From the IMG/VR virus record IMGVR_UViG_3300032242_002232, positions 1 through 64,000 of that record: a DNA stretch of 64,000 nt; one strand, written 5' to 3'. Positions within the stretch are counted from its first letter, which is position 1. Each line of letters begins with the position of its first letter. Below, piece after piece: positions 15,896-36,947 of the stretch. The DNA comes from a virus. Under the pieces are notes generated by a model. The model was not told the DNA's origin. It saw only the letters and a list, made by a program, of their open reading frames with translations, and did not search any database. The position numbers and the translations under genes are program-made.

Positions 15896-16064
15896 CTTTT
15901 TCCTTAGGGTTACGTAGACGATATGTTGCTATCCATAAAAATACGGAGATAAGGATTGCATCTCCAACTACAGTTTTAGCACTACCAGTTAATACCAACC
16001 ATGCAGCAAATAAACCTACAAAGGTCCAAATTTGGTTAGCTAAATCTTGCAAGATGCCTTTCAT
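15879..16064 (-). CDS. Small two-helix membrane protein
   Basis: Product of 61 residues with two hydrophobic segments (IWTFVGLFAAWLVLTG, AILISVFLWIATYRL) and a charged C-terminus (NPKEKDEQTN). The architecture fits a small holin or a membrane partner of the secreted protein encoded just upstream, with which it shares one base. It overlaps the next gene by 17 bases. Confidence 0.65.
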   Translation of the reverse strand: MKGILQDLANQIWTFVGLFAAWLVLTGSAKTVVGDAILISVFLWIATYRLRNPKEKDEQTN

Positions 16065-17782
16065 TAGAATCTCCTTCTTAGTTGTGAAATTCCAGAGGCA
16101 ACAATTGTGGCTACTAGAATCTTTTTAGCTTTTTTACGTGTAACTGGGGACATGTCATTGCCTATGTTTGCCAAAGCAACATACGCATGGTTTAGTGATT
16201 GAATCGCAGCACCTGCACCAGGGATAGCGTCAAGCGCTGCTGGTAGTTCTACAGGTGTTTCTACGATTGGTACGGCAACGTCTGGTGCGTTAAATGTTGT
16301 TCCGCCTGGTTGTCCGATAAATGTGTCCGTAATTGTAATTGCCTCAGGTGGGATAGGTAATCCTGAACCAGGTGGTGGCGGTGGTGGGGTCAAAGTTCCA
16401 TCCTCTTGAATTACCTGCGGTTGACTTTTAGTACCAAAGAACTCAATACCACCGTTTTCTACACCGGGTTTATCTTCCTGTATGTGCGGTATCAGCAGTT
16501 CCTTTGGCGCTTCTTTAGGTGTATCCTCTGGTAATTGGTTAGGGCTATTAGGTACAAGTCCATCTACAACAGGAGGTTCAGGTGCAGGAGCAGGAGCAGG
16601 TAAAGGTTCGGGAGCAGGTGCAGGTTCTGGTGCAGGCTCTGGCGCAGGCGCAGGATCTGGTGCGGGAGCAGGCTGAGGATCAGGTGCGGGTGTTGGGTCT
16701 GGCGCTGGCTCGGGCCCAGGAGCTGGCTCAGGTTGTGGGTCTGGGGCAGGTGCAGGAGCTGGGTCTGGTGCAGGGGCTGGATCGGGAGCGGGAGCGGGCT
16801 CGGTCTGAGGTTCTAGCGCAGGGGCAGGCTCAGGCTCTGGCGCAGGTTGCGGCGCAGGTTCTACAACAGGTGGCTGACTTACAGGCTCCGGCCTTGGAGC
16901 AGGATCCGGTTGAGGATTTACTGGGGCCGGGTCCACTGGTGGAGTTGTAGGCTGTGGAAGAATTGGGTCCGGAGATGGCGCCGGAGACGGCTGAGGCTTT
17001 GGAGAAGGCTGCACAGTTGGCGTTGGCGAAGGCGTTGGCAAAGGCTCGGGAGAAGAGGTAGGTGATGGAGAAGTGGTCACTGTTGCGGTATCTGATACCG
17101 ATGGTTGTATTGACTCCGGTGTGGGGGATGGTGTTGTTTGCGGTGTGGGTTTTATTGAAGAGGAGGGACTAGGAGATGGCGTTGGTTGCTGTGTTGGTTC
17201 TGGGCTTGGGCTCGGGCTTGGTGTTGGGCTATTGGTCGGCGATGCCGAGGGTGAAGCGCTTGCAGAAGGACTCGGATCACTTGTTAGAGTTGGTGATTGA
17301 GTTGGCTGAGGACTTGGCTTGGGAGTGGGGGTTTGAGTTGGTTTGGGAGCCTGTTCTGGAGCAAGACGAATTTTAACTCCATCTGAAAATGCAGAGTAGA
17401 TGTGGTCTGTGTCATCATCAGCCCTAACTCTAAAATCCCACATAGTTGCAGAAGGAACAATTTGATTTAATATTGCAACAGGTATATTAAATTCGGTTTT
17501 TAAAGATTGTTTATCTCCGCCATTACCTGTAGCCATACCAAAACCTGCTCCACAGCCGTTAAAATCTGTAGGGCAGTTAAAAAAAATTGCGTATCTTTCT
17601 ACTTTTCCTGTTTCTGGCGCTTCCCACTGAAGCTTAACAACCCCGTTATTAACTTCTACTTGAAGATTTGTGGGTGCAGAAAGTGTCGGCTCATCACCGA
17701 AGGCTGTTGATACGATTAGTACTGGGTAGAATGCTGCGAATAGTGCGACGGATAATGCTGCGAGTAGGCGCAGTGCTTTTAT
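16064..17782 (-). CDS. Secreted proline-rich protein with Fn3-like domain, probable ATA start
   Basis: About 572 residues. Residues 1-29 form a signal peptide-like segment (LRLLAALSVALFAAFYPVL). Residues about 33-140 look like a fibronectin type III domain (QVEVNNGVVKLQWEAP, then a FRVRADDDTD strand). Residues about 147-400 are Pro/Thr/Ser repeats then Pro/Ala/Asp/Glu repeats, a shape suited to span a cell wall. The C-terminus is basic (RKKAKK ... QLRRRF). The frame is open to a TAG at 17783 and has no ATG, GTG or TTG until the internal ATG at 17536. AAGGAG lies six bases upstream of an ATA at 17780-17782, which I take as the start. Function unknown. Confidence 0.7.
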   Translation of the reverse strand: MKALRLLAALSVALFAAFYPVLIVSTAFGDEPTLSAPTNLQVEVNNGVVKLQWEAPETGKVERYAIFFNCPTDFNGCGAGFGMATGNGGDKQSLKTEFNIPVAILNQIVPSATMWDFRVRADDDTDHIYSAFSDGVKIRLAPEQAPKPTQTPTPKPSPQPTQSPTLTSDPSPSASASPSASPTNSPTPSPSPSPEPTQQPTPSPSPSSSIKPTPQTTPSPTPESIQPSVSDTATVTTSPSPTSSPEPLPTPSPTPTVQPSPKPQPSPAPSPDPILPQPTTPPVDPAPVNPQPDPAPRPEPVSQPPVVEPAPQPAPEPEPAPALEPQTEPAPAPDPAPAPDPAPAPAPDPQPEPAPGPEPAPDPTPAPDPQPAPAPDPAPAPEPAPEPAPAPEPLPAPAPAPEPPVVDGLVPNSPNQLPEDTPKEAPKELLIPHIQEDKPGVENGGIEFFGTKSQPQVIQEDGTLTPPPPPPGSGLPIPPEAITITDTFIGQPGGTTFNAPDVAVPIVETPVELPAALDAIPGAGAAIQSLNHAYVALANIGNDMSPVTRKKAKKILVATIVASGISQLRRRF

Positions 17783-26474: not shown

Positions 26475-26527
26475 TAGCTTCACTGTTATCAGATAATAGC
26501 AATATATACCCTTGAAATGGAGTGTCC

Positions 26528-28570
26528 GTGTTTTCTTTTACCCTAAGCGATGATTTTGTAGGTTCTTACCAAGATAAGAAAGTCCCTTGGGGCTATCAAG
26601 ACGCGGCAGGCAACTCCGTAGGTGAGATCATTTTTCTTAGAACCTACTCTCGTCTTAAGGAAGATGGAACCAAAGAGACTTGGGTTGATGTATGCGAACG
26701 CGTCATTAACGGCATGTACTCACTACAAAAAGATCACGCTAAAACCAATCGCCTACCGTGGTCAGACACTAAAGCCGCGGCTTCAGCTAAAGAGGCTTTT
26801 GACCGCCTATTCAACCTAAAGTGGACACCGCCAGGGCGTGGACTTTGGGTTATGGGAACTCCGCTTGTAAATGTTCAAAAGAATTCAGCCGCCCTTCAAA
26901 ACTGTGCTTTTGTATCTACAAACTCTATGACCAAGAACGACCCTGCTAAGCCTTTTGCTTTTCTTATGGAAGCTTCCATGCTAGGAGTTGGAGTTGGCTT
27001 TGACGATAAGGGTGCAGACAAAGAATTTTCAATTTACTCCCCAACAGAAGGAGATGCCTATGTCATCCCAGACACCAGAGAAGGATGGGTCGAATCAACC
27101 TCAGCCCTCATCAATTCCTACCTTAAGCCAGATCAGAAGCGCCCTGTCTTTGACTACTCCGTCATCCGACCAGAAGGGACTCCGATTAAAACCTTTGGAG
27201 GAACAGCAGCTGGAGCAGATCCGCTCATTAAGCTCCATGGACACATTGATAGGATTTTCAAAGATAGATCTGGACAAAAACTTACTCGCGTAGATATCGC
27301 GGACATTGGCAACCTTATTGGTGTATGTGTTGTTTCTGGTAACGTACGTCGTTCAGCAGAGCTTCTTATTGGCCGAATTGATGACCAGGAGTTCTTAGAC
27401 CTAAAGAATGCTGAAAAGTTCCCTGAGCGTAACTCGTATTCTAAGAAAGCTCCAGGATGGGGTTGGATGTCTAACAACTCCGTAGAAACGTCGGTCGGCA
27501 CAGATCTATCGCCCATTATTGAGGGTATCAGCCGTAACGGAGAGCCGGGCGTAATTTGGATGGATGTAACCCGTAAATACGGTCGTTTAGCGGATCCAAT
27601 TAACAATAAGGACTGGCGAGCTGCTGGGTATAACCCTTGCGCTGAACAGAGCCTTGAGTCATTTGAGTGCTGTACTTTGGTTGAGACATACCTCAACCGT
27701 CATGACAGTTTAGAAGACTACAAGCGCACACTTAAGTTTGCATATCTGTACGCCAAGACGGTAACTCTTGTCCCAACTCATTGGGAAGAAACTAACGCCA
27801 TTATGCAACGCAATCGTCGTATTGGAACATCCATGTCCGGTGTAGCTAACTTTGCTGACAACAAAGGTCTACCAACACTTCGTGAATGGATGGATCAGGG
27901 CTATGGAGTTTTGCAGGCATACGATAAGTCTTACTCAGAGTGGTTGGGTATTCGTGAGTCTATTAAGACCACAACAGTAAAGCCATCAGGAACAGTCTCA
28001 ATCCTAGCGGGAGAATCTCCAGGAGTTCATTGGACTCCAGGAGGTAAGTATTTCCTTCGCACTATTCGTTTTGGTAACACAGACCCAATGCTTCCATTAT
28101 TTAAGTTAGCCAATTACAGAGTGGAGCCGGCAAGCGAATCTCCAGATACAACAACTGTGGTGTATTTCCCAATCAAATCAGACGCTAAGCGCAGTGAAAA
28201 AGAAGTGTCTATCTATGAAAAAATGGCTCTCGCTGCAACGGCTCAGCGTTATTGGTCTGATAACTCAGTCTCTGTGACGGTATCTTTTAACCCCAAGACA
28301 GAGGCGGCTTCTATTGGGACAGCTCTTCATATGTATGATGGTCAATTAAAGACAGTCTCGTTCTTACCAATGGCTACTGGTACATACGAACAAATGCCTT
28401 ATACAACTAGCAATGAAGAAGAGTACGAAGAGGGTAGAATGACCCTATTCCCAATTGACCTAAAAGGGGTTTATGAAGGAATGGCCTTTGACGCAATTGG
28501 AGAGGCTTACTGCACAACAGACGCTTGTGAGGTAAAACTAATTAGAGAGGAAAACAAGAGTGCCAACTGA
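26528..28570 (+). CDS. Class II (adenosylcobalamin-dependent) ribonucleotide reductase
   Basis: A 680-residue single-chain reductase making deoxynucleotides. Features: PPGRGLWVMGTP near the start, the active-site ALQNCAFVST, the NPCAEQSLESFECC segment with Cys and Glu radical residues, and the C-terminal cysteine pair region YCTTDACEV. These fit monomeric B12-dependent reductases rather than class I, and no small subunit is present. The start is set at GTG 26528, five bases after TGGAG; GTG 26522 overlaps that site. It works upstream of the phage polymerase. Confidence 0.85.
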   Translation: MFSFTLSDDFVGSYQDKKVPWGYQDAAGNSVGEIIFLRTYSRLKEDGTKETWVDVCERVINGMYSLQKDHAKTNRLPWSDTKAAASAKEAFDRLFNLKWTPPGRGLWVMGTPLVNVQKNSAALQNCAFVSTNSMTKNDPAKPFAFLMEASMLGVGVGFDDKGADKEFSIYSPTEGDAYVIPDTREGWVESTSALINSYLKPDQKRPVFDYSVIRPEGTPIKTFGGTAAGADPLIKLHGHIDRIFKDRSGQKLTRVDIADIGNLIGVCVVSGNVRRSAELLIGRIDDQEFLDLKNAEKFPERNSYSKKAPGWGWMSNNSVETSVGTDLSPIIEGISRNGEPGVIWMDVTRKYGRLADPINNKDWRAAGYNPCAEQSLESFECCTLVETYLNRHDSLEDYKRTLKFAYLYAKTVTLVPTHWEETNAIMQRNRRIGTSMSGVANFADNKGLPTLREWMDQGYGVLQAYDKSYSEWLGIRESIKTTTVKPSGTVSILAGESPGVHWTPGGKYFLRTIRFGNTDPMLPLFKLANYRVEPASESPDTTTVVYFPIKSDAKRSEKEVSIYEKMALAATAQRYWSDNSVSVTVSFNPKTEAASIGTALHMYDGQLKTVSFLPMATGTYEQMPYTTSNEEEYEEGRMTLFPIDLKGVYEGMAFDAIGEAYCTTDACEVKLIREENKSAN

Positions 28571-30813: not shown

Positions 30814-30886
30814 TGGACCATAGCTCAGTTGGCAGAGCAGGCGACTGTTAATCGCCAGGTCCCTGGTTCGAGCCCAGGTGGTCCAG
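30814..30886 (+). tRNA. tRNA-Asn (anticodon GTT)
   Basis: A complete 73-base cloverleaf. Acceptor TGGACCA pairs with TGGTCCA, T8 A9 are present, the D arm is GCTC...GAGC, the anticodon stem GGCGA/TCGCC holds CTGTTAA (GTT), and the T arm is CCTGG-TTCGAGC-CCAGG. The 3' CCA is not encoded. It is on the plus strand between minus-strand genes, so it needs its own promoter or is read from one. Confidence 0.92.
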
Positions 30887-30891
30887 CTAGA

Positions 30892-31097: not shown

Positions 31098-31766
31098 TTA
31101 CTCCCCGTCGTTGTCGTTATCCTCACTTAGAGTCAACCAAGATTCGTTGAATGGCTCCAAGTGAAGCTTCATTGTCCGGAAACTTGTTGGGTACTGTACA
31201 CGGTGTTTAATTTTACCGTCAATAGCCAAAGCCCATCCAGACACGTCCTCCTCATCACATGCAATGTCAAATGTATAGTGGAACATCACCTTTGGAAACT
31301 TTTTACTTAGTTGGTGATAGATACCGCTGGGTGGCGCCATAGTTGTATCGAACTTGTATGATGCAACGTGTTCGATAAACAACTTCCCGCCTGTGTTTGA
31401 TAGGAACTTTTGAGTCTGAGTTTCAGACATCTCAACTTCACTACGCTCAATGTTAATGGCTTCACGTGGTGTGCACCATTTTTCCATCTTGTATGTATAC
31501 TTGTCAAGTGCTTCCCACTTAGCAAGTACGCTTGGTTTGATATTTAGAGGGTTGAATGTAAGTAACTCCTCTGGTATTGGGGCTACAGCAGCAAATGAAA
31601 AGTCTGAGTCAGGTGTTGCGATGAAGCTTACAGCTTCAAGCACATCAGCTTTTGGACCAGCCATAGTCATTGTGTTGGTGCAGTCGTATTGTTTGTGTCG
31701 GCGAAGCGAGGAGGAAATGTCATTAGTCTCCTCATCTTTGCCCCTTTCAAACGCGAACTCAGCCAT
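31098..31766 (-). CDS. Api92/YubB ferredoxin-like domain protein
   Basis: Product of 222 residues. The second half (GGKLFIEHVASYKFDTTMAPP then LSKKFPKVMFHYTFDI and DVSGWALAIDGKI) fits the Api92-like/YubB domain found in phages and plasmids: a substitution of a Trp/Thr-Pro-Pro turn followed by a helix, FP and a strand. Its function in any system is unknown. It shares one base with the next gene of the minus operon. Confidence 0.55.
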   Translation of the reverse strand: MAEFAFERGKDEETNDISSSLRRHKQYDCTNTMTMAGPKADVLEAVSFIATPDSDFSFAAVAPIPEELLTFNPLNIKPSVLAKWEALDKYTYKMEKWCTPREAINIERSEVEMSETQTQKFLSNTGGKLFIEHVASYKFDTTMAPPSGIYHQLSKKFPKVMFHYTFDIACDEEDVSGWALAIDGKIKHRVQYPTSFRTMKLHLEPFNESWLTLSEDNDNDGE

Positions 31767-32014
31767 TAGTCATCTCCATGTTCTGCTTTGTGTTTGGATA
31801 TGAGTGCTTCCTCATACTTTGTGATGCGGTCTTGCGACCAGGTGAGCATCTCAAGTAAGATGCCTTCTTTCTCAATCGTGTCCATTAACCAGGTATTCAT
31901 ACCGATCAATGCTTCCATCACCACAGGCTTTAGTGGTTCAGGAACACGATTTATGTCATAGTTAAGAGTTGGTTGCATGATCTCGCTAAAAGATTCAAGG
32001 TCATCCTCGTCCAT
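31766..32014 (-). CDS. Small helical acidic protein
   Basis: Product of 82 residues, acidic N-terminus (MDEDDLESFSEIM), then two long helices with MEALIGMNTWLMDTIEKEG and a charged tail. It overlaps the following gene by one base. No family recognised. Confidence 0.55.
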   Translation of the reverse strand: MDEDDLESFSEIMQPTLNYDINRVPEPLKPVVMEALIGMNTWLMDTIEKEGILLEMLTWSQDRITKYEEALISKHKAEHGDD

Positions 32015-32037
32015 AACTACACCCCCTTTTTCTTTTG

Positions 32038-32607
32038 TTAGTTGATTTGACCTACAGTTTGAAACTGTTGTTCATACTCAGAGATAAGATTGGGAAGGTC
32101 TGAGTAGAACTTAGCATCTAAGAACTCTTCTGCTGATTGCTCAAACAAAGAGATGTATTGGCAGATGCGTTGATAGCGACTAGGTATTTCTTTTTTACCG
32201 TCGCTTGTAACCATAAAAGCTGGCTTTATGGCATTACTTAATTGAGTAAGAGAATGACCTGATACTTCAATTGATGCTTCTCTTGGTGGGAAGTTTGGTA
32301 TGTCGTGTAAGTCTATGTTTATAGTAAACATTCCATTTTCATACCAATTTTGATGCCATTGATTATCAAACCGAAGCGTGGATTCAGTAACAAGTAAATG
32401 ACGAACTTTGTCCCAATTATCTCTGGCCCATTGTTCCACTCGTTTCCTGTCCCACGCATTTGCATCTGCTGCACCAAGCGCTTCATGCTCTCGCACTTGT
32501 TTGTAAGAAGCTTCAAGCCAATCTTTATTAGCAGTCAACTTCTTTACAATCTCAGTTCGTCGCACTAAAAACGGAGATGCTTCTATCTTCTTCGTGGCTG
32601 TTGCCAT
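32038..32607 (-). CDS. Unknown helical protein
   Basis: Product of 189 residues. A helical N-terminal half (VRRTEIVKKLTANKDWLEASYKQVREHEALG) is followed by a beta stretch (MFTINIDLHDIPNFPP) and a C-terminal helical bundle. It overlaps its upstream neighbour by 56 bases, unusual but supported by the length of both frames. Function unknown. Confidence 0.55.
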   Translation of the reverse strand: MATATKKIEASPFLVRRTEIVKKLTANKDWLEASYKQVREHEALGAADANAWDRKRVEQWARDNWDKVRHLLVTESTLRFDNQWHQNWYENGMFTINIDLHDIPNFPPREASIEVSGHSLTQLSNAIKPAFMVTSDGKKEIPSRYQRICQYISLFEQSAEEFLDAKFYSDLPNLISEYEQQFQTVGQIN

Positions 32608-32797
32608 CTGTTTCCCCTTCCATAGGCGTGTTATTTAGAACCCAATCTTCAGGTTCCCATAGTGTTTGTATGTCAAATGCCATACCACCATCAGGATCAA
32701 GCAAGTCGCTGGCCTCCATTGTGAAGGCCAGCGCTTGATCCTCAGTCTTGAATGGACCGACTGTTTCGCCGGTTAGTACATCTTTAGCTACGTACAT
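32552..32797 (-). CDS. Unknown small protein
   Basis: Product of 81 residues with a start that looks like a compact alpha/beta unit (MYVAKDVLTGETVGPFKTEDQALAF) and a polar, acidic C-terminus. It shares one base with the gene upstream and a long overlap with the gene downstream; the N-terminal 60 residues look like a real fold. Function unknown. Confidence 0.55.
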   Translation of the reverse strand: MYVAKDVLTGETVGPFKTEDQALAFTMEASDLLDPDGGMAFDIQTLWEPEDWVLNNTPMEGETDGNSHEEDRSISVFSATN

Positions 32798-33252
32798 TAC
32801 TCAAAATCCTCATTGATTAATGTTTCTAGCATATCGATGCGACGAATTGCGCTTTCCAATCCATCTGTAACAATGTCTTCACGCTTTGGTAAACCATCAA
32901 GCGCACCAACTTCGCTAAGCATTGCTGCTTTACCGATAGTCTGGAGCACGGGATGTTCCTTACGCAAAGACATGCCACGCATGAGTGCGTCTTTTGCACG
33001 CTTCATGTCATGGTGTGCACCATCAAAGAAGAACTGTGAAGCTGAGATAGCCCATAGTCCAAGTGATAGTTCGGGTGCGTCTGAGTTTGTGCTTACATCG
33101 TCAGCAAGTTGAAACCAATACTCTGGATCATACTTGGTGAAGTTTGCGTAGTCACAGAACTGAGGTTTGTAGTCAATGAGCACGATCATCTGTGCTACAT
33201 CGGCTTTAACCGCATCCCGCCCTAGCGCCTTGTCCAGAATCTCTCTGAACAT
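32797..33252 (-). CDS. Unknown helical protein next to VWA gene
   Basis: Product of 151 residues, all-helical by pattern (FREILDKALGRDAVKADVAQ, RAKDALMRGMSLRKEHPVLQ). It starts ten bases after the stop of the VWA/HExxH gene and probably shares its transcript. It could be a substrate or adaptor of the AAA+/VWA pair; no family recognised. Confidence 0.55.
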   Translation of the reverse strand: MFREILDKALGRDAVKADVAQMIVLIDYKPQFCDYANFTKYDPEYWFQLADDVSTNSDAPELSLGLWAISASQFFFDGAHHDMKRAKDALMRGMSLRKEHPVLQTIGKAAMLSEVGALDGLPKREDIVTDGLESAIRRIDMLETLINEDFE

Positions 33253-33262
33253 ATTGCCTCCC

Positions 33263-35236
33263 TTACCTGCTTATTCTGCGCTTTTTAATAGCGCCTACAA
33301 CTACCGCTTTGGCAAGTTGTAGTAGATCTTTGCCACCCTTAACTCGAGCAAACAATTCAGCACCATGATCTAGATCATAACGCGGAGGTTGTCCTGCGGC
33401 AATGGCCGCTGCGTTCATTTCTGTGAACTGGGTGTAGTCGCTGTCGCTCATGATTAAGACAAGCGTAGTAAGAACACCACGCTTAGACAGGCGCTTGATG
33501 ATGTCATTGTTTTTATTACTGTCAAATACGCCGTCAGTAATAATGAACATCATCTTGTTTGCACGCTGAGACATCATAAAGTTTTTCTCAGCTTGCAGTA
33601 GTGATACGTGGGGATCAGTACCGCCGTTACCAAAGATGAACTTGTATTTAGTACGCTCAGCTTTGGTGTGTTTTGTATAGGCAACCTCATTCTTGTCATC
33701 AAAGGCATAAACTGTTACCGGGCAATCGATGCTCTCAAGAGCACGCTTGATAGTCCAGCAAGCAATAGAAGCCTTACGATCATTACGATCAGATGACATA
33801 GAACCAGAACGATCGACGAGAATTACGGCTTCGATATCAGTGCTATCGTCGCCTTCGGTCCATCGATCAAATGATTTATCTATATCCGCACCACGCATTA
33901 CGCGTAGCACATTTAACTTACCAGAAACAGTCTCACGCTCCCAGCCTGGCTCAGCTTCATCTTTAAGCTTGCGTAATTCATTGGCAAACTTACGATAGTC
34001 AAGCAGAGCATCGGCAGGAACACCAGTGCTTTCAAACTTACCAAGCGGGTTATCTTCGTCCCAGTTTTCATCACCATGGACGATGATATTTTGCTTGCGC
34101 TTGATGTCTTTGATAACTTCCTTGCGGTTATAGATAGATTGGAGATTGTTGTTCATGGCTTCTTTGAGGTCTTTAGGAAGACCACCTTTGCTTTCTACAT
34201 GGCCTTGACCATGTTGTGCTTTGGCTTTGTCTGTCTCATTGAAGCGTTCTTCTCGCTTAGCAAGTTGTTCATCTGCTGTGCTTGAAGTGTCATCGGCACG
34301 ATCTGTACCAGGTGTATAACCAGTAGGACCATTACCTTCGCCTTCACCCTCACCTTGTCCCTCCCCTTGCGGAGCTGGTGTACCACCCTGAGGTGGCGGT
34401 GTTTGTGTTGGTTGGGCTGGTTCTTTGGCTATGTACTCAGACTCTCGCTTGCCTTGGTTGGCAGCGACTCTAGCATCTCGCTCTTGTGCTTTGCCGGGCT
34501 CTGGTCTACCTTTCTTAATTGGTAGACGCGTGTCGCAATTACCAAGACCACACATGGGTGGGATATCCATTTGGGATATAACCAACTCATGGAACTCTTT
34601 GATAAGTGCTTCAGCTCGTTTGTAGTCACGAGGAAATGCAAGTGACCGATACTCATTAGTAATACGTTGAATATCGGGGATGAGTTCTGGCTTGTAGAAC
34701 AGATCTCTAAACGCCTCTCTGATCTCGACATCGATATGTCTACGACCAGCAATGAGAGGATAGTTAGTGAACGCCATATCTTCTGAACCAGTCAGCCATA
34801 CTAAAGCTGCGGCTTGAAGATAGGGCATGATACTTGGATACCTAGCACAGAGTAAAGACTCGATGCGTTGATCCTCCAAGATATTAAATGCGGTATATAA
34901 GTCTTGCGCTATAACCGATTTAACTAACGTAGTTCCTTCTCGAGGAGTATAGAAGTGATGTGCTAGCTCATGATAGTTGAGACCAGATAACTGGGTCAAC
35001 GTCTCCATAGTCATTTCACCTATATGCTTTTCGTTGATGTAGATATTTTCACCATCAGACCAAGTAACCGCTGGACCGTCTGGTACAACATGTACGTTGA
35101 CGGGATCACCAGTGAGGATGCGGTCAGCACCCTCGTAGACCCGAGACATAGCTGAGAGTTGTAACGCTCTCAGCTGTGCCTTTTCGGTCTTGGTTACCAT
35201 GTAATGAGCATCGTTCTCATCTACTTGATAAGCCAT
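33263..35236 (-). CDS. VWA-domain protein with HExxH motif (CobT-like partner)
   Basis: Product of 657 residues. The N-terminal part has LNYHELAHHF, an HExxH metal site at His89-His93. The middle (about 260-350) is Pro/Gly/Gln/Glu-rich and disordered. The C-terminal VWA domain has the MIDAS motif DRSGS near residue 470, the GGTDPH turn and FIITDG. CobT-like proteins have the same order of acidic linker and C-terminal VWA. The MoxR-type ATPase gene is 14 bases upstream, so the two likely form a chaperone-like pair. The target is unknown. Confidence 0.75.
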   Translation of the reverse strand: MAYQVDENDAHYMVTKTEKAQLRALQLSAMSRVYEGADRILTGDPVNVHVVPDGPAVTWSDGENIYINEKHIGEMTMETLTQLSGLNYHELAHHFYTPREGTTLVKSVIAQDLYTAFNILEDQRIESLLCARYPSIMPYLQAAALVWLTGSEDMAFTNYPLIAGRRHIDVEIREAFRDLFYKPELIPDIQRITNEYRSLAFPRDYKRAEALIKEFHELVISQMDIPPMCGLGNCDTRLPIKKGRPEPGKAQERDARVAANQGKRESEYIAKEPAQPTQTPPPQGGTPAPQGEGQGEGEGEGNGPTGYTPGTDRADDTSSTADEQLAKREERFNETDKAKAQHGQGHVESKGGLPKDLKEAMNNNLQSIYNRKEVIKDIKRKQNIIVHGDENWDEDNPLGKFESTGVPADALLDYRKFANELRKLKDEAEPGWERETVSGKLNVLRVMRGADIDKSFDRWTEGDDSTDIEAVILVDRSGSMSSDRNDRKASIACWTIKRALESIDCPVTVYAFDDKNEVAYTKHTKAERTKYKFIFGNGGTDPHVSLLQAEKNFMMSQRANKMMFIITDGVFDSNKNNDIIKRLSKRGVLTTLVLIMSDSDYTQFTEMNAAAIAAGQPPRYDLDHGAELFARVKGGKDLLQLAKAVVVGAIKKRRISR

Positions 35237-35250
35237 AATCTATTCCTTTT

Positions 35251-36645
35251 CTACTTACTTGTCTTTAGCCAAGCATCGACTTCTTCACCGATGTTTGATG
35301 CTTCAGGTTTCTGTTCTTCTGTCTCAACGAGACCGAAGTCCTCCTTGATGTTGAACTCATGGGTCATCATGACAAGAGCAACTTTTTCTTGCTCTTCTTT
35401 ATCAAAGTGTGCTACGAAATTAGCAATTGCAAACTCATAGTTGAACTTGATAAACTTTTCCAACTCCATGAACATGTTGGTTGATACTGGAGTCTCAAGG
35501 TCACCCTTGGAAGCCTCAGCACGAAGCTGCTTCGCAATAACGAGAAGCGACTTGTGTGTGATGAGCTTAGACTCTACGTCATCATCGTAATCCCACGGGA
35601 CCTGCAACTCAAAGCGATTACGCATCGCAAAGTTGAGTGGCGTTGTACCGGTGTAATCAGGATTCATAGTTGCAAAGATTGCAAGGTCTGGGTGTGCCTG
35701 AATGGTCTCACCATGATGATCGAGCAGGATCAAGCAGCGTCGTCCATCAAGAAGTGAATACAGAATTGTGTAGATTTTTGGCGAGATAAAGTTGAGCTCG
35801 TCAAGAATAAGAGTACCGCCGTTACGTACAACGTCAGTTACTGGACCGTCAATCCACTCGAACCCACCGCTTCCATCTGGTACATATTTACCGATGAGTT
35901 GGCTAGGTTCTAGAGCAGCATTGCCAGATACAGCAGCTAGACGACGTTTACGTGAGGCAGACCATGCAACAATAGACGTAGTCTTACCAGGGCCGGTAGG
36001 GCCGTAGATAAGCGTGGTCAATCCATTATCTAACGCGTAATCAAATAGGTCAAAGTCAAGAATGTCACCCGTAAGTTTACGGTTGACGTACTTGTTGGCT
36101 TGTTCGATTGGGGGAATCGTAGCTAATGCAATCCGAAGTTTTGAGGTTGAGACAAGCTCTGTCTCTTCGACCTCAGGGGCTGCGGATGTTTGTGTTGGCA
36201 TGAATTGCGCTTCTTCTTGTGAGTCTCGTTCACGACGTAGGTCGTTAACATACTCAGTCAATGAAGGATCCACTACATTCACTCTGTTGTATAGCGCAGT
36301 GATGCGGCTTGGTACTGAACCAAACTCTTCATCTTTATCTGCTTTAGCATACGCTGCCATTGCTTTAGTAGACAACACAGGAGACCAACCGGTCTGTGAT
36401 ATTGCCTGCTCATCAGCAAGAGTAACTGTTATGCCAACAGGTGTAGTAGTGATGTATTCATTGCTTGAGATACTCGCAAGCAACTCAGGTAATGATGTGA
36501 TGTCCCAACGATTTGATTTGCCAGGACCACCATCAGTGAGTCTTGAATAGACCTTTGTCTCATCGTTATGAGGTACGAAAAGTATTTGACGCTTCTCGTC
36601 TCCCATCGATGGTTCATAAGTCTCTACGAACATCGCTATATTCAT
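35251..36645 (-). CDS. MoxR/CobS-type AAA+ ATPase
   Basis: Product of 464 residues. The AAA+ core starts near residue 195; Walker A is YGPTGPGKT near residues 212-220, Walker B is LILDELNF, sensor 1 is IFATMNPD, and an arginine-rich helix follows (AMRNRFELQVPWD). These are MoxR/CobS features. The N-terminal 190 residues are unlike CobS and may bind a substrate. The gene leads a minus-strand operon with the VWA protein, after a terminator and a tRNA-like hairpin. Confidence 0.82.
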   Translation of the reverse strand: MNIAMFVETYEPSMGDEKRQILFVPHNDETKVYSRLTDGGPGKSNRWDITSLPELLASISSNEYITTTPVGITVTLADEQAISQTGWSPVLSTKAMAAYAKADKDEEFGSVPSRITALYNRVNVVDPSLTEYVNDLRRERDSQEEAQFMPTQTSAAPEVEETELVSTSKLRIALATIPPIEQANKYVNRKLTGDILDFDLFDYALDNGLTTLIYGPTGPGKTTSIVAWSASRKRRLAAVSGNAALEPSQLIGKYVPDGSGGFEWIDGPVTDVVRNGGTLILDELNFISPKIYTILYSLLDGRRCLILLDHHGETIQAHPDLAIFATMNPDYTGTTPLNFAMRNRFELQVPWDYDDDVESKLITHKSLLVIAKQLRAEASKGDLETPVSTNMFMELEKFIKFNYEFAIANFVAHFDKEEQEKVALVMMTHEFNIKEDFGLVETEEQKPEASNIGEEVDAWLKTSK

Positions 36646-36684: not shown

Positions 36685-36741
36685 CTCAGCTAGTGTGCTA
36701 TCAGGATTCGAACCTGATTACTGCACCACGCTAGCACTGAG
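36685..36741 (-). other. tRNA T-arm-like hairpin in the AAA+ gene leader
   Basis: On the minus strand a perfect T-arm (TCAGG-TTCGAAT-CCTGA) sits inside a stem made of GTGC/GCAC, CTAG/CTAG and CTCAG/CTGAG segments. The T-loop TTCGAAT is fully canonical, yet there is no D arm or anticodon arm, so it is not a working tRNA. It lies 40 bases upstream of the AAA+ start. It could be a tRNA relic, a minihelix or a regulatory leader. The rest of the 36646-36947 gap holds only the terminator below and no gene I can see. Confidence 0.5.
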
Positions 36742-36747
36742 AAAAGA

Positions 36748-36786
36748 GTAAGGACCGGCGCCGATATCAGACACGCCGGTCCTTAC
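36748..36786 (-). terminator. Terminator between minus-strand units
   Basis: A perfect 13-bp stem (GTAAGGACCGGCG with CGCCGGTCCTTAC) and a 13-base loop; on the minus strand it is followed by CTCTTTTCTC. It ends transcripts coming from 37-41 kb, so the AAA+/VWA operon would need its own promoter. Confidence 0.7.
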
Positions 36787-36947
36787 ACCTATTTACTGCT
36801 TACTCAATGAAGAGGATACTTAGTTGGCATAGAAGACCCGATACTCCACGCTATAGACTAAACCGCGATGACCGATATACAGACGTCAATCGTTGAATAG
36901 CTGCTATGACTGATACTCTCTTCCGACCCTGTTTTCCAATAAAGAGC

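Follow-up and report, generated by a model that had tools for sequence, protein, structure and literature searches.

The window analysed here comprises the first 64,000 positions of a 99,213-base virus contig (IMG/VR record IMGVR_UViG_3300032242_002232). Its minus strand carries two adjacent genes encoding an AAA+ ATPase (35251..36645, 464 aa) and, 14 nt downstream, a 657-aa partner protein with metallopeptidase-like and VWA domains (33263..35236). An earlier note on this DNA had described the two as an adjacent, co-oriented pair of MoxR/CobS-type ATPase and VWA protein, and both the arrangement and the class assignment were confirmed. The 464-aa protein matched Pfam AAA_5 (E=9.6e-19) and phrog_249 (i.e. 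'porphyrin biosynthesis', E=3.3e-43), with an AAA module at approximately residues 212-345 and an N-terminal extension of ~200 aa. The Walker A (GPTGPGKT, residues 215-222; 35980..36003, minus strand), Walker B (LILDELN at residue 279) and sensor-1 motifs were all intact, with ATMNP located at residue 325 and RNRFE at residue 342, as in MoxR-type members of the AAA+/VWA class. A sequence search returned NorQ, CbbQ and Midasin among the relatives of solved structure, and the protein is also related to the 'cobS' products of T4-like cyanophages, haloarchaeal viruses and Vibrio phage ICP2.

The partner consists of an N-terminal domain (residues 1-240; 34517..35236), a low-complexity linker rich in Pro, Gly, Gln and Glu (approximately residues 240-385; 34085..34519), a predicted 'finger' (residues 425-465; 33842..33964) and a VWA domain (residues 466-657; 33266..33841), all encoded on the minus strand. 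The composition of the linker and its poor conservation in alignments suggest that it is disordered. For residues 1-240, AlphaFold2 produced a zincin-like (gluzincin-type) model with a predicted local distance difference test (pLDDT) score of 91.3 and a predicted template modelling score of 0.88, in which a helix is followed by strands at 47-51, 58-60 and 64-68 and by a helix (77-96) bearing the HExxH motif (HELAH, residues 89-93; 34958..34972, minus strand). E121, R124 and E126 of an EDQRIE motif (residues 121-126; 34859..34876, minus strand) sit on the next long helix (114-132), and E121 (or E126) is the candidate third metal ligand. This succession of an HExxH helix and a Glu helix is shared with the minigluzincins (abylysin, jannalysin and selecase) and other gluzincins. 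Searched against viral models, the N-domain matched other viral VWA/CobT proteins (E-values as low as 3e-12), and some of the weaker matches were metallopeptidases. Searching by sequence for relatives of the 657-aa protein with a solved structure gave no usable match, whilst Foldseek with a model of residues 385-657 (pLDDT 87.9) identified NorD of the NorQD complex as the best PDB match (9qhd_G, E=1e-8), followed by MIDAS domains of Midasin. The window partner resembles NorD in having a VWA domain with a finger, the finger itself being modelled at a lower pLDDT of 61-72. On the basis of hhalign and Foldseek, this segment (GKLNVLRVMRG, including G439) is predicted to be the counterpart of the pore-inserting finger of NorD and of the GxLDxxRL region of CobT. 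The VWA domain has a complete metal-ion-dependent adhesion site (MIDAS; D475, S477, S479, T540 and D568), of which the DRSGS motif (residues 475-479) lies at 33800..33814 on the minus strand.

Conservation of these sites was examined in relatives from viral contigs, for which alignment-guided scans yielded 170 and 251 sequences, 80 of each being kept. Residues were counted over 99 non-redundant viral homologues (<80% identity) after clustering at 80%. H89, E90 and H93 of the HExxH motif and D475, S477, S479 and D568 of the MIDAS were each present in 99/99 homologues, as was G439; E121 and E126 were each found in 98, R124 in 97 and T540 in 95. Loci fetched by a MIDAS pattern all contained HExxH (80/80) and complete loci fetched by HExxH/LEDQRIE patterns all contained a MIDAS (77/77), such that the two scans act as controls for each other. 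Cyanophage 'peptidase' loci were collected with peptide patterns that have nothing to do with either site; the HExxH, EDxRIE and MIDAS motifs were present in 73/73 full-length proteins, and cobS shared the strand in 28/28 of the loci with sufficient flank. The conservation of HExxH and MIDAS is not due to chance, and practically every viral partner carries the metallopeptidase signature. The HExxH of the VWA partner, which the earlier note had regarded as unusual, is instead the rule in phages, and the hint of proteolysis or metal binding drawn from it was strengthened by the invariant HExxH...E. As the general-base Glu is itself invariant, and not the metal ligands alone, the pattern argues for catalysis.

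The pair is not unique to the window, being carried by phages of actinobacteria, cyanobacteria, Vibrio and haloarchaea. Relatives of the partner were detected by tblastn in 14 Gordonia and two Brevibacterium phage records at ~30% identity; in all five of these regions that were opened an AAA+ gene lay just upstream, and most of the partners were annotated as 'CobT-like cobalamin biosynthesis protein'. The opened cyanophage regions contained a 'peptidase' gene a few genes before cobS, and a VWA gene was located near a CobS-like gene in HVTV-2, ICP2, DSL-LC01 and Phendrix. The partners in all of these opened regions possess both HExxH and a DxSxS MIDAS. The earlier note had let its pairing stand or fall with co-occurrence in related phages and the pairing held, an AAA+ gene being found upstream on the same strand in 156/156 viral loci with enough sequence and within 600 bp in 154 of these. 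The term 'accessory operon' used in that note undersells the pair, which belongs to the core of several phage lineages. A related AAA+ gene without such an adjoining partner was observed in Microbacterium phage Cece and Acinetobacter phage YMC13. In Cece (L010, 4842-9325), the AAA+ gene directly precedes rIIA-like and rIIB-like genes in place of the VWA partner, and the rIIA-like product contains neither HExxH nor DxSxS. The Haloarcula virus HVTV-2 (L008, 1857-2570) has a separate SprT-family metalloprotease gene ~2 kb upstream of its CobS-like gene. The presence of a WhiB gene in the window virus (Pfam) and the nearest isolated relatives being Gordonia and Brevibacterium phages indicate that the host is probably an actinobacterium.

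Outside the viruses, the strictness of the peptide patterns limited a scan of a genome collection to a single relative, in a contig of a Thiotrichales metagenome-assembled genome. Among viral contigs, a scan for the ICP2 type found no relatives. With a plasmid pALVIN02 protein as the query, HExxH-type relatives were found in 2/200 Pseudomonadota genomes as compared to CobT in 38/150, the queries differing in sensitivity. Relatives on mobile elements (plasmids, haloarchaea) also retain HExxH and the downstream Glu motif. The plasmid relatives (pALVIN02, Streptomyces plasmids and a Halomicrobium plasmid) resemble the window in having an AAA+ gene next to or near an HExxH-plus-VWA gene and differ in their other neighbours and in a very low identity to the window protein. 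The pALVIN02 module (L210, 2956-9863) has the order RecT, exonuclease, AAA+, DUF3150, HExxH/VWA and RadC, and this plasmid also carries an inovirus Gp2-family gene.

The viral partner was compared with authentic CobT using 28 TIGR01651 proteins from 150 Pseudomonadota genomes. The cellular CobS/CobT proteins (TIGR01650, TIGR01651, PF06213 and PF11775) share a collinear domain order and a MIDAS with the window pair, and CobT additionally shares the finger motif GxL[ND]xxR and the N-domain E..R.E with the viral partner. Profile comparison with hhalign gave E=7e-14 for the finger-VWA part, which corresponds to the C-terminal half of CobT, and E=1.4e-4 for the N-domains with a probability of only 53%, supporting homology of the two families. 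Cellular CobT differs in forming a high-scoring family of its own, in having a cellular CobN partner and in the metal site, as none of the 28 proteins contains HExxH. The aligned CobT site is H-[D/N]-xxx-H (first H in 28/28, D in 24 and N in 4, second H in 27/28), followed by an E..R.E motif conserved in 28, 28 and 26 of the 28 proteins and aligning with E121, R124 and E126. It is therefore CobT without HExxH that is the unusual member. The window partner produced no match to TIGR01651 at E<=1 (equivalog cut-off of 759 bits) and only 11.7 bits against PF11775 (cut-off of 21), whereas the ICP2 partner matched TIGR01651 with E=8e-31. The pALVIN02 protein retains HExxH and scores above the cut-off of the CobT N-domain family PF06213, thereby bridging the two families. 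A simple reading of these alignments is that HExxH would be ancestral and was lost in CobT, which looks like a degenerate branch, a direction not polarised by an outgroup.

The AAA+ proteins were also placed in a tree, in which cellular CobS was monophyletic (support 100/99) and the window protein belonged to an actinophage clade (98/94); the window protein did not group with cellular CobS, the deep branches of this tree being weak. This is a known kind of viral gene pair, usually labelled 'CobS/CobT' or 'cobS + peptidase', and it is the metallopeptidase reading that is new. Liu et al. (2021; PMC8651126) considered the cyanophage peptidase annotation to be mistaken and proposed that viral CobST joins host CobN. 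The pairs covered by that proposal, among them cyanophage cobS plus 'peptidase' (T4-GC 150/146), the Gordonia 'AAA-ATPase + CobT-like' genes, ICP2 and HVTV-2, have the same two-gene layout as the window, with an AAA+ motor and a VWA partner containing HExxH and MIDAS, and the window pair likewise has a CobS-like AAA+ gene adjoining a co-oriented VWA/MIDAS gene. Given the intact HExxH...E in the sequences examined, calling the cyanophage protein a peptidase is no less justified than calling it CobT. Within the open-access literature no paper was found that treats CobT with metallopeptidase and von Willebrand together.

Our preferred explanation, held with moderate confidence, is that the pair forms a phage machine that is driven by ATP and acts on selected targets as a metallopeptidase (or by metal-dependent remodelling). 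It builds on the conserved adjacency of the genes, the intact ATPase motifs, the invariant HExxH...E and MIDAS and the predicted folds. By analogy with NorQD, the AAA+ protein would assemble into a hexameric ring whose pore receives the finger of the partner. The VWA MIDAS would grip an acidic residue of a specific target protein, and ATP hydrolysis would stretch and, again as in NorQD, twist the linker so as to pull on the target. The linker-tethered, gluzincin-type N-domain may then cut the target or an associated protein; in its predicted site, H89, H93 and E121 (or E126) would coordinate a metal and E90 would act as the general base. The target could be a host or phage protein and, since the pair has replication genes nearby in several phages, it would probably be encountered during the replication phase. 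These neighbours are a DnaB helicase/primase and a single-stranded DNA-binding protein in Gordonia phages, gp44-45-46 in cyanophages and a primase/helicase in ICP2; the pALVIN02 relative lies near RecT, exonuclease and RadC. Such neighbourhoods hint that the pair acts during DNA replication or recombination.

Several points weigh against a peptidase. Foldseek gave no PDB match of the N-domain at E<=0.001, so that the zincin fold is only suggestive. The best of the non-significant matches were mostly gluzincin peptidases, with the minigluzincin abylysin at the top (E=0.41, prob 0.75) and repeated entries of jannalysin, selecase, M1 aminopeptidases and M4 proteases; no VWA or AAA+ partner is named for the minigluzincin and gluzincin structures. 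In the alignment, the ICP2 partner has V at the position of E121 and one lineage consequently lacks this candidate ligand. A conserved HExxH can also be used for metal chemistry other than proteolysis and, to our knowledge, MoxR-VWA pairs of known function (e.g. NorQD) are remodelling chaperones rather than proteases. The homology to CobT also makes a chelatase-assisting role possible.

A somewhat unlikely alternative is that the pair is an anti-host or counter-defence effector that disables a defence protein or a regulator of the host, the variable downstream genes providing further host-takeover factors. This overlaps with the preferred explanation and differs only in naming the class of target. 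It would fit with the broad spread of the pair in phages of unrelated hosts and with the variable hypothetical genes downstream; against it, in several phages the genes conserved next to the pair are for replication, a setting that suits a replication role equally well. No PADLOC match was obtained for any of the seven proteins, the library consisting of defence models and not of anti-defence models, and a known defence system was rejected on this result.

Less likely again is a non-proteolytic MoxR-VWA chaperone that, like NorQD, matures a metalloenzyme, the HExxH domain being a metal- or target-binding module and the ribonucleotide reductase (RNR) of the window phage a possible client. NorQD inserts iron; a finger of its VWA protein reaches into the pore of the ring, and the linker is twisted and stretched as ATP is hydrolysed (PMC13036017). 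The N-domain, linker, finger and VWA architecture recurs in the window pair, the finger-VWA part finds its best structural match in NorD, the window ATPase matches NorQ and the RNR co-occurs in 30/32 freshwater contigs (window counted). A structural or metal-delivery site needs no invariant general-base Glu, yet E90 is present in 99/99 homologues; furthermore, neither of the two NorD proteins examined has HExxH, and RNR was undetected in eight characterised carriers of the pair.

The proposal that the pair acts as a viral CobS and CobT that join host CobN, insert cobalt and raise cobalamin levels, for example for a B12-dependent RNR (PMC8651126), is the published one and is improbable in our assessment. 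In its favour are the CobST homology detected by hhalign, the TIGR01651 match of the ICP2 partner and the presence of class II RNR in several carriers. The B12-dependent (class II) RNR reported in the earlier note was verified at 26522-28570 by Pfam PF17975 and PF21995. As PF02867 misses this divergent enzyme, the window RNR protein was used as a query, revealing the enzyme in 29/31 related freshwater contigs and in DSL-LC01; HVTV-2 also has a class II RNR. The cobalamin link that the note had considered possible is weak, as several carriers have no detectable RNR large subunit with either the window query or PF02867 (five Gordonia phages, Cantare, ICP2 and Phendrix), P-SSM2 encodes a class Ia NrdAB and CobN was found in 0/43 viral records, host CobN not being searched. 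With many carriers, including most of the characterised ones, lacking such an enzyme, the need of a B12-dependent RNR cannot explain the pair in general and was ruled out as such. The missing TIGR01651 match of the window protein, the HExxH retained where CobT has H-[DN]-xxx-H and the separate clade of cellular CobS also speak against this proposal. The pair is homologous to CobST, but the evidence gives no support to cobaltochelatase function. A COG3864-type VWA metallopeptidase was excluded by the lack of PF13203/PF09967 matches in the window protein (E<=1) and ten relatives (E<=0.5), and general library scans, which included no search for RavA-specific domains, gave no match pointing to RavA-ViaA.

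T4-like cyanophages have cobS in their core gene set (PMC3037559), and publications on phage auxiliary metabolic genes repeatedly list it, interpreting it as a cobalamin biosynthesis gene. A broader proposal can be put forward tentatively: viral 'CobST' may be no B12 enzyme but a widespread AAA+-powered, VWA-targeted metalloprotease system of phages and mobile elements, from which cellular CobST would have derived once the protease site was lost (HExxH changing to H-[DN]-xxx-H). If so, the cyanophage cobS 'auxiliary metabolic gene' would be misnamed. Were the constant partner a working metallopeptidase, ecological inferences about cobalamin would be unsafe and phages would own an unrecognised machine for targeted proteolysis or remodelling. 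An origin for CobT is also on offer: speculatively, it may be a zincin-like domain without the catalytic Glu that kept His, His and Glu and possibly now handles cobalt. The invariant Glu of HExxH is the single residue separating the protease and chelatase hypotheses, making the question directly testable.

Five co-oriented genes follow the pair on the minus strand (31098..33252; 32797-33252, 32552-32797, 32038-32607, 31766-32014 and 31098-31766 in the list of open reading frames). The earlier note had grouped these with the pair; their presence and orientation were confirmed, and they are not conserved outside the close group. In the order given, they were found in 8, 40, 5, 5 and 16 of 58 close loci and in none of 22 farther loci, 80 group-B loci or the Gordonia and Brevibacterium regions. 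Library scans detected no significant known family except for a weak match of 31098-31766 to phrog_12644 (E=9e-4). The conserved unit is the AAA+/partner pair only, the five downstream genes being lineage-specific, and a role for these genes as parts of the system was rejected on the basis of their limited conservation.

On the upstream side, a tRNA-like minihelix uncalled by ARAGORN and Rfam is located at 36690-36740 (minus strand), ~45 nt upstream of the AAA+ start, with an acceptor-like stem (GTGCTA/TAGCAC) around a T-arm (TCAGG-TTCGAAT-CCTGA). It occurs at the matching place in two relatives (L015:2641-2687; L016:4457-4504) with the T-arm altered on both sides and, on these three sequences only, might represent either what is left of a tRNA or a signal for RNA processing. 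Directly before it is a strong terminator-like hairpin, GGACCGGCG...CGCCGGTCC, at 36738-36800 (minus strand; shuffle z-score of -5.3), so that the AAA+ and partner genes may start their own transcript. Elsewhere in the window, a tRNA-Asn gene (30814-30887, plus strand) lies within an otherwise minus-strand gene block of ~11 kb. A 490-aa open reading frame at 16064-17536 (minus strand), without a PHROG match, occupies a locally GC-rich and strongly skewed stretch (GC 0.50, GC skew 0.24) and may be a gene or a shadow reading frame.

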